Of a stretch of DNA of 56,320 bases, positions 38,918 through 44,011 are shown piece after piece; positions within the stretch are counted from its first letter, which is position 1, and the number at the start of each line of letters is the position of its first letter. The notes below the pieces were generated by a model. It had not been told where the DNA came from and made no database searches. It worked only from the letters and a program-made list of their open reading frames with translations. Made by a program: the position numbers and the translations under genes. Where the stretch lies: the NCBI GenBank assembly GCA_016930695.1, contig JAFGGD010000030.1, positions 1-56,320 of the forward strand, written 5' to 3'. The DNA is from Candidatus Eisenbacteria bacterium (lineage in GTDB: Bacteria > Orphanbacterota > Orphanbacteria > Orphanbacterales > Orphanbacteraceae).

Positions 38918-40156
38918 ATGCCGGCGCCCCCCCCGAACGTCACCGGGTTCGCCTGCCTCGCCTGCGGGCGGGAAGAGCCTTCCGGCGCGGGCCGTTTCAC
39001 CTGTCCGTCCTGCGGGGGCAACCTGGACGCCCTTTATGATTACGTCGCCGCCTCCGCCGCCATGGACAGGGAAAGGATCGCCGCGTCGAGGGACCGCTCC
39101 TTCGCGCGGTGGGCGCCCCTTCTTCCCCTCGCGGAGGAGAGCCTTCCTCTGACGACGCCGGTGGGAGGGACGCCCCTCCTCCGCGCGGAACGTCTCGGCC
39201 GCTCCCTCGGGCTGGAGAATCTCTTCCTGAAAGACGACACCGCCGAGCCGACCGCCTCCTTCAAGGACAGGGCGAGCGTCGTGGCGCTTCTCCGCGCCCG
39301 CGAAACAGGAGCGGACACGGTGGCGGTCGCCTCCACGGGAAACGCCGCCTCCTCGACCGCGGGGATCGCCGCCGCCCTCGGCATGCGCGCCGTTCTCTTC
39401 GTCCCCGAGTCGGCGCCGGAGCCGAAGCTCGTCCAGATGCTCCTCTACGGCGCGCGCGTGGTCCGCGTGCGCGGGAGCTACGACGACGCCTTCGACCTGT
39501 GCGGCCGCGCCGCCGAGCGATTCGGCTGGGTCGACCGCTCCACCGGCGTGAATCCTTTCACCGCCGAGGGGAAGAAGACCGCCGCCTTCGAGATCGCCCT
39601 CGACGGGGGACGACGCGCGCCGGATTGGGTGCTCGTCCCCACGGGGGACGGCAACATCCTCGGCGCCACCGGGAAAGGCTTTCGGGAGATGCGCGCCCTC
39701 GATTGGATCGATCGCCTCCCCCGGATGGTGGCGGTGCAGGCGGAAGGGTCGTCCGCGATCGTCCGGGCCTTCCGAGAAGGGAAGAAGGAGGCGGAAGAGG
39801 GGCCGGCCGACACGATCGCCGATTCGATCCGGGTGGGCCGCCCCCGCGATTCGGTCCGCGCTCTCCACGCGCTCTACGACTCGGACGGCCTCGGTGTCTC
39901 CGTGACGGACGACAGGATTCTCGCGGCGGCTGCTCGTCTCGCCCGCGAGACCGGCGTCTTCGCGGAGCCCTCGGCGGCGGCGGGGCTCGCCGGACTGGAG
40001 AGGATGGTCGAGGAAAACCGTGTAAAGCCCCAAGATCACGTGGTTTTAGTGATCACCGGCCATGGACTGAAAGACCCGCGCACCCTTTCCTCGGGCATCG
40101 AAGTCCCCGCCGCGATCGATCCCACCCTCGAGGCGGTGGAGGAGGAGATCGGCTGA
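38918..40156 (+). CDS. Threonine synthase-like PLP enzyme
   Basis: Fold type II PLP enzyme, 412 residues. An N-terminal zinc-ribbon-like part has CLACGREEPSGAGRFTCPSCGGNLD. The PLP Lys is in TASFKDRAS, the substrate/phosphate loop in VASTGNAASSTAG, and PTGDGNILG binds the cofactor phosphate. By sequence it would be threonine synthase (thrC). By place, directly after ygeW, it occupies the slot held in other genomes by YgeX, a PLP diaminopropionate ammonia-lyase, so a lyase of the purine-derived amino acid is an alternative. It ends the four-gene run. Confidence 0.8.
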   Translation: MPAPPPNVTGFACLACGREEPSGAGRFTCPSCGGNLDALYDYVAASAAMDRERIAASRDRSFARWAPLLPLAEESLPLTTPVGGTPLLRAERLGRSLGLENLFLKDDTAEPTASFKDRASVVALLRARETGADTVAVASTGNAASSTAGIAAALGMRAVLFVPESAPEPKLVQMLLYGARVVRVRGSYDDAFDLCGRAAERFGWVDRSTGVNPFTAEGKKTAAFEIALDGGRRAPDWVLVPTGDGNILGATGKGFREMRALDWIDRLPRMVAVQAEGSSAIVRAFREGKKEAEEGPADTIADSIRVGRPRDSVRALHALYDSDGLGVSVTDDRILAAAARLARETGVFAEPSAAAGLAGLERMVEENRVKPQDHVVLVITGHGLKDPRTLSSGIEVPAAIDPTLEAVEEEIG

Positions 40157-40289
40157 GTCGTCCCTTTCGTTCCGGGGCGTCTCGTCGGTAGAACCGCTTG
40201 ACCGTGTAGAAGGAACATTAAAATTATTGCCGATGTCTTAACGGGAGGTTTTGATTCGCTTAAAGGAGCCATATCCTGCAATTTTTGCA

Positions 40290-40318
40290 TTGATATCGAC
40301 TTGCGTTTCTGTTACGAT
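40290..40318 (+). promoter_or_regulatory. Promoter for the first secreted paralogue
   Basis: TTGATA (40290-40295), exactly 17 bp, TACGAT (40313-40318), in locally AT-rich sequence. It gives a leader of nearly 200 nt. Confidence 0.65.
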
Positions 40319-40324
40319 ATTCCC

Positions 40325-40519
40325 GAGTTCTAGAAATCGGGCTCAGGGATGGTCGCGCACGGTCGTGGTATTTCGGCCGGGCGCTGAAGGATAACCCCAA
40401 GCGGTTCATCCATTTGCCGAAGGAGGAACACGCTGGAGGGCAGAGGGTTATTCGATTTTCCCGTAGTCGACGGACAGGAACACTGGGGTGATAGCCCCGC
40501 AACTCAGGGAGGTCATAGC
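40325..40519 (+). other. Long structured 5' leader of the secreted paralogue
   Basis: About 195 nt between predicted start site and ATG. A hairpin CCCGA/TCGGG (40322-40341) opens it. A GGGG-TGATAG-CCCC hairpin (40485-40498) stands just before the GGGAGG site (40507-40512). A 12-codon frame (ATG 40349 to TGA 40387) could be a leader peptide. It matches no riboswitch consensus I know. The rest of the gap 40157-40289 shows no gene. Confidence 0.4.
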
Positions 40520-41134
40520 ATGCGTTTGTTACTGATTGGTAGCCTCGTTCTGGCCCTGGCCGGTTTCGCTTGGGCCGGCACCAGCTGCTACGGCTGGGAA
40601 GACGGCACCGGCACCATCTTCGGGTTCTACGGCAACCTCTACAACCCGACCAACGTGAGCGATTTCGCCCACACCGGGAGCCACTCGCTCTACATGCAGG
40701 AGTCGCCTCTCGGCGGCACCCCGCAAGCCTACGTTGCTTGGATCAACGGCCTGACTGACGGCGACGTCGTCGACGTCAGCTTCTACGCGTACGACAACAC
40801 CGAGGGCGTGAGCCCGAGTGCGCGGATCTGGGCCCACTACACCAGCGATCCGATGGATCCGGATTCCTACGCCGGTAGCGCCTACGGTCTTTACGACTAC
40901 AGCGCCGGCCTCGGTTGGGATCTGCTCTCCTACAGCTGGACCTTCGACAGCGACGGCGGCTCCCGCGACGGTCTGATGATCGAGTTCCGTCTCTACAGCG
41001 TCGCCGAGTTCGACGAGTACTGGTGCGACGACATTTGCGTCACCGCGCCGGACGGCGCCATCATCAGCTTCCCGGGCGGAACGTCCGCTGTGGACAACAC
41101 CTCCTGGGGCAGCGTGAAGAGCCTCTTCCGGTAA
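40520..41134 (+). CDS. Secreted beta-rich protein, tandem paralogue 1
   Basis: A 204-residue exported protein: signal peptide ending GFAWAG, then a beta-sandwich-like domain with YGWEDG, FAHTGSHSLYMQESPLGGTPQAYVAWINGLTDGDVVDVSFYAYD cut into its parts, GWDLLSYSW, GLMIEFRLYS, and the ending SAVDNTSWGSVKSLFR. The GTPQAYVAWI strand and order recall carbohydrate-binding-type jelly rolls, but no family is recognised. It has its own promoter, long leader and strong terminator, which suggests high expression. It is homologous to the next gene along its full length. Confidence 0.82.
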   Translation: MRLLLIGSLVLALAGFAWAGTSCYGWEDGTGTIFGFYGNLYNPTNVSDFAHTGSHSLYMQESPLGGTPQAYVAWINGLTDGDVVDVSFYAYDNTEGVSPSARIWAHYTSDPMDPDSYAGSAYGLYDYSAGLGWDLLSYSWTFDSDGGSRDGLMIEFRLYSVAEFDEYWCDDICVTAPDGAIISFPGGTSAVDNTSWGSVKSLFR

Positions 41135-41157
41135 TTCCGGAAACACGAGGTTTCGAC

Positions 41158-41194
41158 GAGGCCCGGACCATCGCGGTCCGGGCCTCTTCTTTTT
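41158..41194 (+). terminator. Strong intrinsic terminator
   Basis: Perfect 12-bp stem (41158-41169 with 41175-41186), five-base loop, then TTCTTTTT. It ends the transcript of secreted paralogue 1. Confidence 0.92.
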
Positions 41195-41272
41195 CGTCGA
41201 TGACGCGCGCCCGATCGCTTTTCCTAAAAGGTCCTCAAGCAAGAATTCTCTCGCGGGGAAGAACCCGACCCC

Positions 41273-41301
41273 TGGACGGACATCCCGTTATCATTTATAT
41301 T
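41273..41301 (+). promoter_or_regulatory. Promoter for the second secreted paralogue
   Basis: TGGACG (41273-41278), 17-bp spacer, TATATT (41296-41301). It lies in an AT-rich patch after the first terminator; leader about 105 nt. Confidence 0.55.
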
Positions 41302-41411
41302 TGATATGTTTCCTCCCCATCCTCATCGAAGCCGCGCCTCTCGGCAGGGAGAAGGATCTATTGGGCGAAACCGCGTCGGGCCGACTCACCGGCGCCCGCA
41401 AGGAAGAGGAA

Positions 41412-42044
41412 ATGGAGATGCGGAAAAGAACGATGCTCCTCTGCGTCGCGGCGGCGTTCCTCGCCGCTCCTGCCGCGGGGGACACCTTCGGGTGGGAGGA
41501 CGGCGCGTCCACGATTCTGGGCTGTTCCGGCAACCTGATCGATGAACAGAACGTGGACGGACCCTTCGTCCACACCGGCGCGCGCTCCCTCCGCGTGACC
41601 GAGGCGCCCCACTCCGGAACGCCCCAGGCGTGGATCGCCTGGATCACGGGGATCCGCGACGACGACGTGGTGCGCGCGGGCTTCCGCGCATACGACGAGT
41701 GGGAGGATTATCCCTCGCTCCGGCTGCACGCCCACTACACGCCGGGAACCGATTTCACCATCTACATGGGGGACGCCTTCGGCCCGATGGAGTTCAGCGA
41801 TCCGGTCGGATGGGACCTTCTGGAAGGGAGCTGGAACATCGACACCTGGGAGGGCGAACGGGAAGGCCTGGTGATCGAAGCGCGCCTCTACAGCACGCCC
41901 ACGGAGTGCGATTCCTGCGCGACCGATTTCTGGATCGACGATCTCTACGTCGACGCCCCGGCGCACGCCACGGTCTACTTTCCACTCGGCCCGTCCGCGA
42001 CGGACAACACCTCCTGGGGAGGCGTGAAAAACCTCTTCCGGTAA
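41412..42044 (+). CDS. Secreted beta-rich protein, tandem paralogue 2
   Basis: A 210-residue exported protein from the ATG at 41412 (a second ATG at 41418 is possible). Signal peptide ends APAAGDTF. It matches paralogue 1 throughout: GWEDGASTILGCSGNL, HTGARSLRVTEAPHSGTPQAWIAWITGI, GWDLLEGSW, EGLVIEARLYS, WIDDLYVDAP, and the ending SATDNTSWGGVKNLFR. The conserved NTSWGxVKxLFR tail is unusual for a free secreted protein and may be a sorting or assembly tag. Two extra Cys (TECDSC) are absent from paralogue 1. Function unknown. Confidence 0.8.
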   Translation: MEMRKRTMLLCVAAAFLAAPAAGDTFGWEDGASTILGCSGNLIDEQNVDGPFVHTGARSLRVTEAPHSGTPQAWIAWITGIRDDDVVRAGFRAYDEWEDYPSLRLHAHYTPGTDFTIYMGDAFGPMEFSDPVGWDLLEGSWNIDTWEGEREGLVIEARLYSTPTECDSCATDFWIDDLYVDAPAHATVYFPLGPSATDNTSWGGVKNLFR

Positions 42045-42068
42045 TCCCGGATCACGAGATCTCTTCGA

Positions 42069-42100
42069 AGCCCGGTCCCGCGCGGGACCGGGCCTTTTTT
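42069..42100 (+). terminator. Strong intrinsic terminator
   Basis: Long G/C stem (GCCCGGTCCC with GGGACCGGGC) and a run of six or seven T (42094-42100). It ends paralogue 2, 16 bp before the stop of the convergent glycosyltransferase gene. Confidence 0.9.
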
Positions 42101-42115
42101 ATTCTTCCGGAAGAA

Positions 42116-44011
42116 TCAGCGTGGGGAGGGAGGCGCGGACGCTAAGATCTCCCGCATACGCGCCGTCGTTTCGTGATTCGGATCGGCCGCCTCGGCGAGC
42201 CGGAGATACCGCTCCGCCTCGTCCCTTCGCTCCATCGCGAGCGCGGCGGTGAAGCCCAAGTAGCATCCCCGCACATCGTCCGGACGGATCCGCAGGTAGC
42301 GATCGATTAGGTCCATCGCCTCCTCCCAGTTTCGTGCGTTCGTCTCGCCGACGGCGGCATACCAAAGAAGGTCCGGCGCGTCCGGATCGAGAAGGAGGCC
42401 CTCGCGGGCCGTTCGCAGGATCGCTTCGCGGTCTCCCGGTGCGCGTCGCCCCGCATAGGCTCGGGTCAACGCCCGGTACACCTCCGGCTGCCGCATCGAT
42501 CCCTCCGCGAGGATCCCCTCCAGGATCGGGACCGCGGCGGCCGGATCTCCGCTGTCGAGCAGATCCTGCGCCTCCGAGAGGGCGGCGAATCCGCGGGTCG
42601 ACTCGCGCACGCCGAGCGGATCCGCGTAGAGCGCCGCGGTGATCAACACGGCCGGAAGGAGAAGGCGGAGCGCGTCCGCCGGACGGGGCCCGCGTAATCG
42701 TTCCGCGATCCGGACCACGGTCCATGAAGCGCCCAGAGCGACGAAAGGAACGAGAGGAACCCGATAGCGTCCTGTGACGAAGAAGGCGACGATCGTCGCG
42801 GCGTAGATCGCCAGGAACCAGAGGATCAGTGTAAGAAACGCGCCGCGTTTCTTCTCTTCCGGACGGCGCCCCGAGCGCCGGCCCGCGGCGATCATCGCCG
42901 GGAGGGAGGCGAGGAAAAATCCGAGAAGAGGCGCGAAGCCGAGCGGCACGACGCGGAAGGCGAGGAAACGAGAGCGCCGCGCCTCATAGGGCTCGTTGTT
43001 GGGGAGTTCCGCGTTCCCGAGGAGCGCGATCGTTTTCCGCAGAGTGAGCCGCGCCCAACGTCCCGGATCGTTCCGAATGAAATCGAAGGCGCGGCCGAAC
43101 CAGTAGTCGGAAACCGCCGAGGGAAGTAAGGGCCGCCCCGCCGCTTCCTCGGCGATCCTTTTCGTGTCCTCGAAACCGCCCCACCAGGTCGCTCGCGTTC
43201 CAGGAACCACCGCTTCCATGCCGTTCGACTCCGGGTTGTTTCCGATATAAAAGTTCACGCCCCCCTGGGAGGCGATCCCCACCCAGTCGCCGCCCACGAC
43301 CCGGTTCCGGATCGTGACGCCTGCGGCCGGCAGGAGAGATCCGGCGGCGAAGAGGAGCAGAAAGAACCGCGCACGCCCGCGCGGGCCGTGGCGGAAAAGC
43401 CAGAAGAACGCGAAGGGGAAGAAGAGGAGGATGTTGGGCCGGGTGATCGCGTAGAGGCCGAAGGCGAGCCCGGACGCGCCCGAGAGGGGGACGCTCCCGC
43501 GCTCGATCGCCTCGTGGAGGAGAAGGAAGCCGAGCAGGACGAAAAAGACGAGGAGCACCGGCAGGAGAAGTTCCCCGTCGAAGTAGGCGAAGACCCAGTA
43601 GAAAGCGCAGATCGAACCCGCGAGAACGCCGGTTCTCCTGCCGAAAAACCGCGCCCCGAGCGCTCCCGCCATCGCCGACGAGAGAGAGCCGATCACCATC
43701 TGCGCGATCCGGAAGAGCACCGTCTGTTTTCCGAAGAGGAAAAAGAGTGCGGCTAGGAACCAGGGATAGAGGGGCGCCCGGAAGTAGGGGGCGTCCTTCA
43801 GCGCGTCGAAGGGGGGAGGCCAGCGACCCTCGGCGATCCCCTCCGCCCAACCCAGGTGATACTCCTGGTCCATCGTGAACAGGTGAAAATCGGGCCGGCT
43901 GCTCGCCTCCCACAGATACGCCCCCCGGTAGAGAAGGGCGGCGGCGATGATGATCCACCACCATATCCGTCCCAGGCGGAACTTACGGGATCTCGCGCTC
44001 CGCTTCGGCAA
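42116..44011 (-). CDS. Membrane glycosyltransferase (GT-C/ArnT-like) with TPR tail
   Basis: A 631-residue polytopic protein. The N-terminal 440 residues hold about ten membrane helices in GT-C style: the first loop carries FTMDQEYHLGWAEGI and APYFRAPLYPWFLA, the place of the catalytic Asp/Glu in dolichol- or undecaprenyl-sugar transferases. TGRYRVPLVPF is typical of the later helices. The last 150 residues are soluble and helical with TPR character (AALSEAQDLLDSGDPAAAVPILEGIL, WEEAMDLIDRYLRIRPDD). It probably moves a lipid-linked sugar to a protein or glycan on the outer face. Confidence 0.78.
   Translation of the reverse strand: MPKRSARSRKFRLGRIWWWIIIAAALLYRGAYLWEASSRPDFHLFTMDQEYHLGWAEGIAEGRWPPPFDALKDAPYFRAPLYPWFLAALFFLFGKQTVLFRIAQMVIGSLSSAMAGALGARFFGRRTGVLAGSICAFYWVFAYFDGELLLPVLLVFFVLLGFLLLHEAIERGSVPLSGASGLAFGLYAITRPNILLFFPFAFFWLFRHGPRGRARFFLLLFAAGSLLPAAGVTIRNRVVGGDWVGIASQGGVNFYIGNNPESNGMEAVVPGTRATWWGGFEDTKRIAEEAAGRPLLPSAVSDYWFGRAFDFIRNDPGRWARLTLRKTIALLGNAELPNNEPYEARRSRFLAFRVVPLGFAPLLGFFLASLPAMIAAGRRSGRRPEEKKRGAFLTLILWFLAIYAATIVAFFVTGRYRVPLVPFVALGASWTVVRIAERLRGPRPADALRLLLPAVLITAALYADPLGVRESTRGFAALSEAQDLLDSGDPAAAVPILEGILAEGSMRQPEVYRALTRAYAGRRAPGDREAILRTAREGLLLDPDAPDLLWYAAVGETNARNWEEAMDLIDRYLRIRPDDVRGCYLGFTAALAMERRDEAERYLRLAEAADPNHETTARMREILASAPPSPR

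Follow-up and report, generated by a model that had tools for sequence, protein, structure and literature searches.

A short C-terminal tail of small secreted proteins in Candidatus Eisenbacteria and other bacterial lineages as a candidate sorting tag possibly linked to the type IX secretion system

The window analyzed here, a stretch of 56,320 nucleotides of contig JAFGGD010000030.1, is part of the 3.78 Mb draft genome of a Candidatus Eisenbacteria bacterium and carries two tandem genes on the forward strand, designated A and B, the products of which both end in DNTSWG(S/G)VK(S/N)LFR. We conclude that this shared tail is very probably a short C-terminal sorting or retention signal. The type IX secretion system (T9SS), or a shuttle of it, may be what reads the tail, a step that stays at about even odds because the receptor was not found, and the reading as a whole, in which the tail is a minimal T9SS-linked sorting tag on small secreted proteins, is assigned a probability of about 0.52. 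An earlier reading of the window (the sequence-only reading) had suggested for the tail a possible role as a signal for secretion or assembly, and this suggestion is now strongly supported by the recurrence of the tail on many mostly unrelated secreted proteins in several phyla.

The tail was searched for as the pattern WGxxKxL[FY]R followed by a stop codon, written as DNA, with the reversed pattern as the control. Within the window, the pattern was found in genes A and B only, with 0 matches in 100 shuffles. The sequence-only reading had proposed a search for further genes with the tail, whose absence would have counted against it; such genes exist, as the genome has 18 matches (reversed control, 0), with endings close to [ST]xTExxSWGxVKxLFR, on proteins that have signal-peptide-like starts and mostly unrelated bodies, two pairs being paralogous. 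In seven genomes of the phylum, which represent one family and five genera, the tail was present in all seven, with 7-32 matches each and 152 in total (control, 0). Relaxed tails also exist, with WS in place of WG or with the endings KAMFR, KSFYR, and FRR, and the number of 18 and the other counts are lower bounds because these forms were left out of the genome-wide counts. From the 152 phylum matches, 45 distinct tails were read (46 rows, including one truncated duplicate), and the pattern loci provided 44 tails, of which 42 belong to open reading frames (ORFs) of at least 100 amino acids (aa), with L034 ending at a contig edge and L042 lying in a 72-aa frame, where the match may be due to chance or the gene may be broken. 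The consensus is E-x-x-[ST]-W-G-x-[VIL]-K-x-L-[FY]-R-COOH, with E-x-x-[ST]-W-[GS]-x-[VIL]-K-x-x-[FY]-R-COOH as its looser form. In the columns left free by the pattern, the 45 tails have E at position -13 in 40, S or T at -10 in 40, and V, I, or L at -6 in 43.

The tail was found at the very end of proteins that appear to be exported. Among the 326,010 residues of ORFs in loci that had been selected for a terminal tail, the motif stands at the end in 113 cases and is truly internal in none, the sole "internal" match being located one residue before the stop. A hydrophobicity rule recognized a signal-peptide-like start in all 42 phylum tail ORFs and in 140 of the 150 complete tail ORFs from all loci; of the 10 that failed, most seem to be truncated or to have a broken frame, and one, L102, clearly starts with a signal peptide despite failing. 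This rule is loose, passing 178 of 460 neighboring ORFs compared with 46 of 50 tail ORFs. The phylum tail proteins that were read have lengths of 161-383 aa and bodies that differ, with a mean column identity of 13% in their alignment, and the bodies match different families, which include beta-helix/NosD, X25, CHRD, PPC, and choice-of-anchor W, X, and J, together with lamin-tail-like, FN3-like, and NHL-like bodies recognized by reading. Such a diversity of families contradicts the explanation that the tail merely reflects descent from one ancestral gene and has no sorting role, which is hardly credible even though some of the tail genes are tandem paralogues. Two other identities were rejected. 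That of a transmembrane-type tag was given up since, in the last 45 residues, only 1 of the 113 proteins has a 17-residue window with a mean hydropathy of 1.6 or more, and that of an outer-membrane lipoprotein since a lipobox-like regular expression, which is a loose rule, matched the N-terminal part of 12 of the 113.

A simpler situation was found in all seven genomes labelled Ignavibacteria, Kapaibacteria, or Chlorobi (G019, G021, G023, G024, G029, G030, and G031), where there is exactly one tail per genome and it sits on one orthologue of about 130-147 aa, consisting of a signal peptide, one FN3-like domain, and the ending [RK]TWG[SM]IK[AE]LFR. The 15 orthologues of this protein are 29-55% identical to the first row of their alignment. 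That W, G, K, L, and R are invariant in them does not count as evidence, since the pattern used to fetch them demands these residues; T and I are free only in the seven orthologues from a scan of 98 genomes of one class, where both are invariant, and F is never replaced by Y. A profile search independent of the tail identified the whole protein in 9 of these 98 genomes, eight times with a canonical tail, and the ninth orthologue (L193, G123:C1:2606473-2606841) has a tail diverged to TWQRFANLFK, which keeps W, L-F, and the terminal basic residue. In an AlphaFold model from 15 rows, the core has a predicted local distance difference test score (pLDDT) mostly above 90 and the tail one of 61-65, with a low-confidence short helix at residues 122-128, and the tail is, on this model, probably a separate and flexible peptide. 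The matches to its fold include FN3-like modules (3mpc, E 4.8e-4) and PelI-type N-terminal modules of pectate lyases, and the matches in NCBIfam and Pfam were weak and scattered. The helix would suit a membrane-active tail, that is, a short amphipathic peptide of W/I/L/F and K/R that binds the membrane surface without a receptor; we consider this quite improbable, as the conservation of E at -13, S/T at -10, and V/I/L at -6 exceeds what amphipathicity needs. The single copy also bears on the possibility that the tail is a docking ligand by which different modules are plugged into a common scaffold (a matrix, a surface layer, or a cellulosome-like assembly), an idea near to that of the sequence-only reading. 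One peptide common to many different modules, and tandem arrays such as that with five tails in G004:C21, would be expected of such a ligand, but a genome with one tail protein holds no many-part assembly, and a scaffold with repeated receptor modules was not seen among the neighbor groups listed, making this possibility improbable. In the array in question (G004:C21:223729-226221), the five tail-ending matches are in tandem at a spacing of 612-618 bp. The single-copy tail gene of a Kapaibacterium metagenome-assembled genome (MAG) lies directly after a run that reads as ftsQ-ftsA-ftsZ (L107:842-4609), and a maf-like gene is present near the tail gene in five loci, all of the Ignavibacteria type (L080, L081, L109, L117, and L138).

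Evidence for a link with the T9SS comes from homologous proteins that carry the tail or a T9SS C-terminal domain (CTD). T9SS cargo is abundant in the phylum genomes, with 100-148 TIGR04183 matches per genome at E <= 0.001, and this domain was found in none of the 42 phylum tail proteins at E <= 0.01. L059 encodes a 738-aa protein with a T9SS-type end and, directly after it, a 231-aa frame with the tail, the two being 39% identical over 188 residues, and L068 has a similar pair of bodies, one with a T9SS-type end and one with the tail (40% over 149 residues). Matches to the beta-helix-like tail body of L026 include proteins of L088 and L089 that have T9SS-type ends, and long ORFs have, directly before the T9SS domain, the FN3-like module that forms the body of the single-copy orthologue; the T9SS-type ends in these comparisons were recognized by reading and by a regular expression. 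The tail also follows choice-of-anchor domains, the name of which refers to the alternative C-terminal anchors that come after them. L033 has a choice-of-anchor W domain (NCBIfam choice_anch_W) at residues 8-197 of 218 (179 bits, cut-off 45) ahead of the tail, and L025 and L021 carry an X domain just above its cut-off (26.1 vs 25) and a J domain below its cut-off (20.6 vs 30), respectively. The tail takes the place of the T9SS CTD on homologous proteins and is interchangeable with it across homologues. Such body swaps, including those between adjacent paralogues and that of the FN3-like module which elsewhere precedes a CTD, argue against a T9SS-independent anchor, by which an outer-membrane, peptidoglycan-linked, or surface receptor holds the proteins in the periplasm or at the surface and the co-occurrence with the T9SS reflects a common lineage, that of the Fibrobacteres-Chlorobi-Bacteroidetes (FCB) group. 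This alternative is unlikely; in its favor, the tail is small, linear, and without CTD motifs, the tail proteins are short whereas many frames with a T9SS CTD are much longer, and the correlation with the translocon protein SprA is phylogenetically confounded.

With regard to this correlation, two features of T9SS cargo, a Sec signal peptide combined with a C-terminal signal and a genome that encodes SprA, were found in 42 of the 42 phylum ORFs and in 7 of the 7 phylum genomes, respectively. The class of G023 is represented by 98 genomes, 12 of which encode SprA, and the tail was found in 8 of these 12 and in 0 of the 86 SprA-negative ones; matches to the FN3-like profile were likewise confined to the 12. 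Of 29 genomes selected because they carry the tail, 21 have a match to SprA, or 19 of 27 when two that repeat phylum genomes are left out. Some of the SprA-negative ones gave other T9SS signs, as indicated by a home-made hidden Markov model of the T9SS domain built from 29 ends, which had 5 matches in G020 (400 kb of one 2.34 Mb contig) and 7 in G035 (220 kb), compared with 9 in 180 kb of SprA-positive G018 and 0 in 50 kb of E. coli, and a T9SS-type CTD was recognized by reading in locus L068 of G017. Of the others, two are small MAGs (G025 and G033), and a third, G027, is a 7.1 Mb MAG with all three of its tails on one 3.5 kb contig; the tails of these three genomes are likely due to chance or contamination. 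The ends themselves are alike, the last three residues being hydrophobic, hydrophobic, and K or R in 22 of 29 T9SS-type ends, 112 of 113 tails, and 25 of 801 other ORFs, a likeness that is partly selected by the tail pattern.

Several observations weigh against a role of the T9SS. The 12 SprA-positive genomes of the class, listed side by side, probably form one clade and hence a single evolutionary contrast; among them, G124, G129, and G130 have no tail that was found, and the fourth remaining one, G123, has the diverged tail. No SprA_N match was obtained in 8 of the 29 tail-chosen genomes (G017, G020, G021, G025, G027, G032, G033, and G035), the home-made model could also pick up similar immunoglobulin (Ig)-like ends that are not T9SS signals, and G007 and G008, which have SprA, possess one tail each. 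In the clustering of genes beside the tail genes, T9SS cargo was the only frequent family (27 of 118 loci), but such cargo is abundant anyway, and ABC ATPases (9 loci) and the maf-like gene (5 loci) also recur there. Among the top 14 groups of the neighbor clustering, neither a receptor nor a convincing partner gene was found. In two distant genomes, two genes come after the tail gene, one encoding a large secreted protein that has a T9SS-like end and the other an ABC ATPase (L076:5292-7543 and L091:1630-3821).

Taken together, the mechanism that we consider for the T9SS-linked tag would start with the export of the products of genes A and B, small proteins with a putative beta-sandwich body, by the Sec system. 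The last ~16 residues would then serve as a shared linear sorting tag that is exposed and read by an envelope receptor, with the W/I/L/F face and the terminal Arg possibly being bound by an outer-membrane receptor of the T9SS. Candidates for this receptor are the SprA translocon and a PorV- or PorP-like shuttle barrel, which would export the small cargo or hold it at the surface, and the tag would accompany the type A domain as a minimal signal linked to the T9SS. A T9SS component is the most economical receptor because the body swaps and the co-occurrence point to it, because the T9SS reads more than one class of signal through different shuttles, and because shortened type A signals still work. 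On a more tentative level, the tail might constitute a third class of T9SS signal, a 16-residue linear peptide with no folded domain that would, in several uncultivated phyla, direct up to dozens of small proteins per genome to the T9SS, either across it or onto it; the one conserved FN3-like protein that bears the tail in Ignavibacteria, Kapaibacteria, and basal Chlorobi may belong to the T9SS itself.

The tail is widely distributed, and a scan of a collection of named species gave at least 118 stretches with it. Among the matches listed, the labels, which were counted by eye and as deposited for the MAGs, with the possibility that one genome gives several stretches, were Eisenbacteria (38), Krumholzibacteriota/-iia (19), Gemmatimonadota groups (9), Latescibacterota (3), Kapaibacterium (3), Melioribacter (3), Ignavibacteria (2), Chlorobiota/Thermochlorobacteriaceae (2), Coatesbacteria (2), Kerfeldbacteria (2), and UBP1 (1), with one each for Fibrobacter, Verrucomicrobia, Planctomycetota, and Bacteroidia and 30 without a label. 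The Bacteroidia match, on a membrane protein, is probably due to chance, and the tail genes L102, L095, and L136 in MAGs labelled Planctomycetota or Kerfeldbacteria are probably on misbinned contigs of a tail-bearing lineage. In 30 whole genomes chosen for having the tail, 1-36 matches were found in each and 226 in total, compared with 1 for the reversed control; G009 and G022 of this set are identical to G003 and G006 of the phylum set, as indicated by the same match coordinates. In several candidate phyla, the tail marks out many secreted proteins that had gone unlabelled.

At the locus in the window, genes A and B lie between a threonine-synthase-like gene and a convergent gene for a membrane protein with TPR repeats, as named by reading the translations. 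The sequence-only reading was right that these are two full-length secreted homologues with a common NTSWGxVKxLFR end, since the ORFs and the alignment agree with it (49% identity over the alignment, both with a signal peptide by reading). The start of gene B is likelier at 41418 than at the ATG at 41412, judging from ribosome-site spacing by reading, and P0002 was read from 41412. The layout as two separate transcription units also holds as far as scans for consensus promoters and hairpins go: three sigma-70-like promoter matches were found (shuffle mean, 0.3), the third being at 40198-40227, and five terminator-like sites (shuffle mean, 1.6), those after A and B being by far the longest. Structured RNA was rejected at this locus, as there were five weak matches, none of which reached the gathering score.

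Table 1. Positions of genes A and B, their C-terminal tags, and the predicted transcription signals in the window.
Feature	Position	Strand	Basis
Promoter-like site 5' of gene A, TTGATA-17-TACGAT	40290..40318	+	9/12 consensus match; predicted
Gene A (P0001), secreted protein, 204 aa; signal peptide at about residues 1-19	40520..41134	+	ORF and reading
C-terminal tag of gene A, SAVDNTSWGSVKSLFR	41084..41131	+	motif; modelled at low confidence (pLDDT ~30, residues 188-204)
Intrinsic-terminator-like hairpin 3' of gene A, 12 pairs and T-run, stem 41158-41186	41158..41196	+	folding z -5.4
Promoter-like site 5' of gene B, TGGACG-17-TATATT	41273..41301	+	9/12 consensus match; predicted
Gene B (P0002), secreted paralogue, 210/208 aa from 41412/41418	41418..42044	+	ORF and reading
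C-terminal tag of gene B, SATDNTSWGGVKNLFR	41994..42041	+	motif, alignment
Intrinsic-terminator-like hairpin 3' of gene B, 10 pairs and T-run, stem 42070-42093	42070..42103	+	folding z -2.5

The bodies of the two proteins gave fewer clues. P0001 and P0002 match no family in Pfam or NCBIfam, a scan of genome contigs for close relatives with P0001 found none, and sequence searches of solved structures with the two alignments A1 and A2 gave no matches. In the seven phylum genomes, gene A has one homologue elsewhere (L166 in G003, 55% identity), and G004 has no match at E <= 0.01. Structure prediction, which the sequence-only reading had proposed, was run on P0001 and yielded a weak fold similar to carbohydrate-binding modules (CBMs) at poor confidence, with a pLDDT of 56.8 from a 3-row alignment and of about 30 in the last 17 residues. 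The matches of this model in PDB were CBM22/27/35, gingipain adhesin domains, and others, none at E <= 0.001, and serve as leads only; the model suggests that the gene A body is a beta-sandwich and, weakly, that it is jelly-roll or CBM-like. Because of this weak CBM-like fold and the single further homologue in the phylum genomes, a surface or periplasmic binding protein of an ordinary kind is no less plausible than the abundant structural component that had been proposed. The flanking genes provide an ordinary context, reading as threonine synthase (38918-40156) and a membrane glycosyltransferase/TPR protein (42116-44011). By reading, the homologue L166 seems to have a pyrimidine-phosphorylase-like region nearby, a setting shared with the window.

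Sorting tags at the C-terminus point to the machinery of secretion and allow the surface proteome of bacteria that have not been cultivated to be read from sequence data. If the T9SS reads the tail, the minimal signal would be far smaller than the folded domain that has been thought necessary, and short fusions would allow a direct test of the recognition step. An entry point could be provided by genomes labelled Melioribacter, which have the single-copy orthologue and belong to a genus that includes a cultured species.

In the comparison with known systems, PEP-CTERM, GlyGly-CTERM, and MYXO-CTERM tags consist of a transmembrane helix and a basic end. They resemble the tail in being short C-terminal tags on dozens of unrelated secreted proteins per genome and differ from it in the transmembrane helix, which the tail does not have (1 of 113 hydrophobic). 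The type A CTD of the T9SS (TIGR04183) and the tail are both C-terminal on Sec-exported proteins of FCB bacteria and occupy the same position on homologous bodies, but the tail has ~16 residues in contrast to ~70-80 in the CTD. A type A CTD is an Ig-like sandwich with motifs B, D, and E, as defined in PMC11969387, whereas the tail is modelled as a low-confidence coil or short helix without the sandwich and without motifs B and D (GxY), a difference that adds to the points against the T9SS. Shortened signals are known in Prevotella intermedia, where CTDs of 40-55 residues retain three strands along with motifs B, D, and E (PMC11969387), and in HBP35, the signal of which was mapped to the last 22 residues (PMC11969387, PMC11285876); compared with the short Prevotella CTDs, the tail, which is shortened like them, keeps at most the terminal basic residue. 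The T9SS reads several signal classes through separate shuttles, type A by PorV and type B by PorP/SprF, as stated in PMC12618676, and type B signals, although longer, are a precedent for a different C-terminal signal at the same translocon. No type B-like NCBIfam match was obtained in the 42 tail proteins, a shuttle family was not seen among the neighbor groups listed, and in none of the 42 did NCBIfam or Pfam show a match that covers the tail itself (single-protein rows for 22). Among the papers listed in literature searches on these lineages combined with T9SS or sorting terms, which did not extend to subscription papers and preprints, none described the tail. C-terminal sorting tags are known as a kind, and the tail differs from those compared here in its size, in having no fold, and in having no membrane helix.

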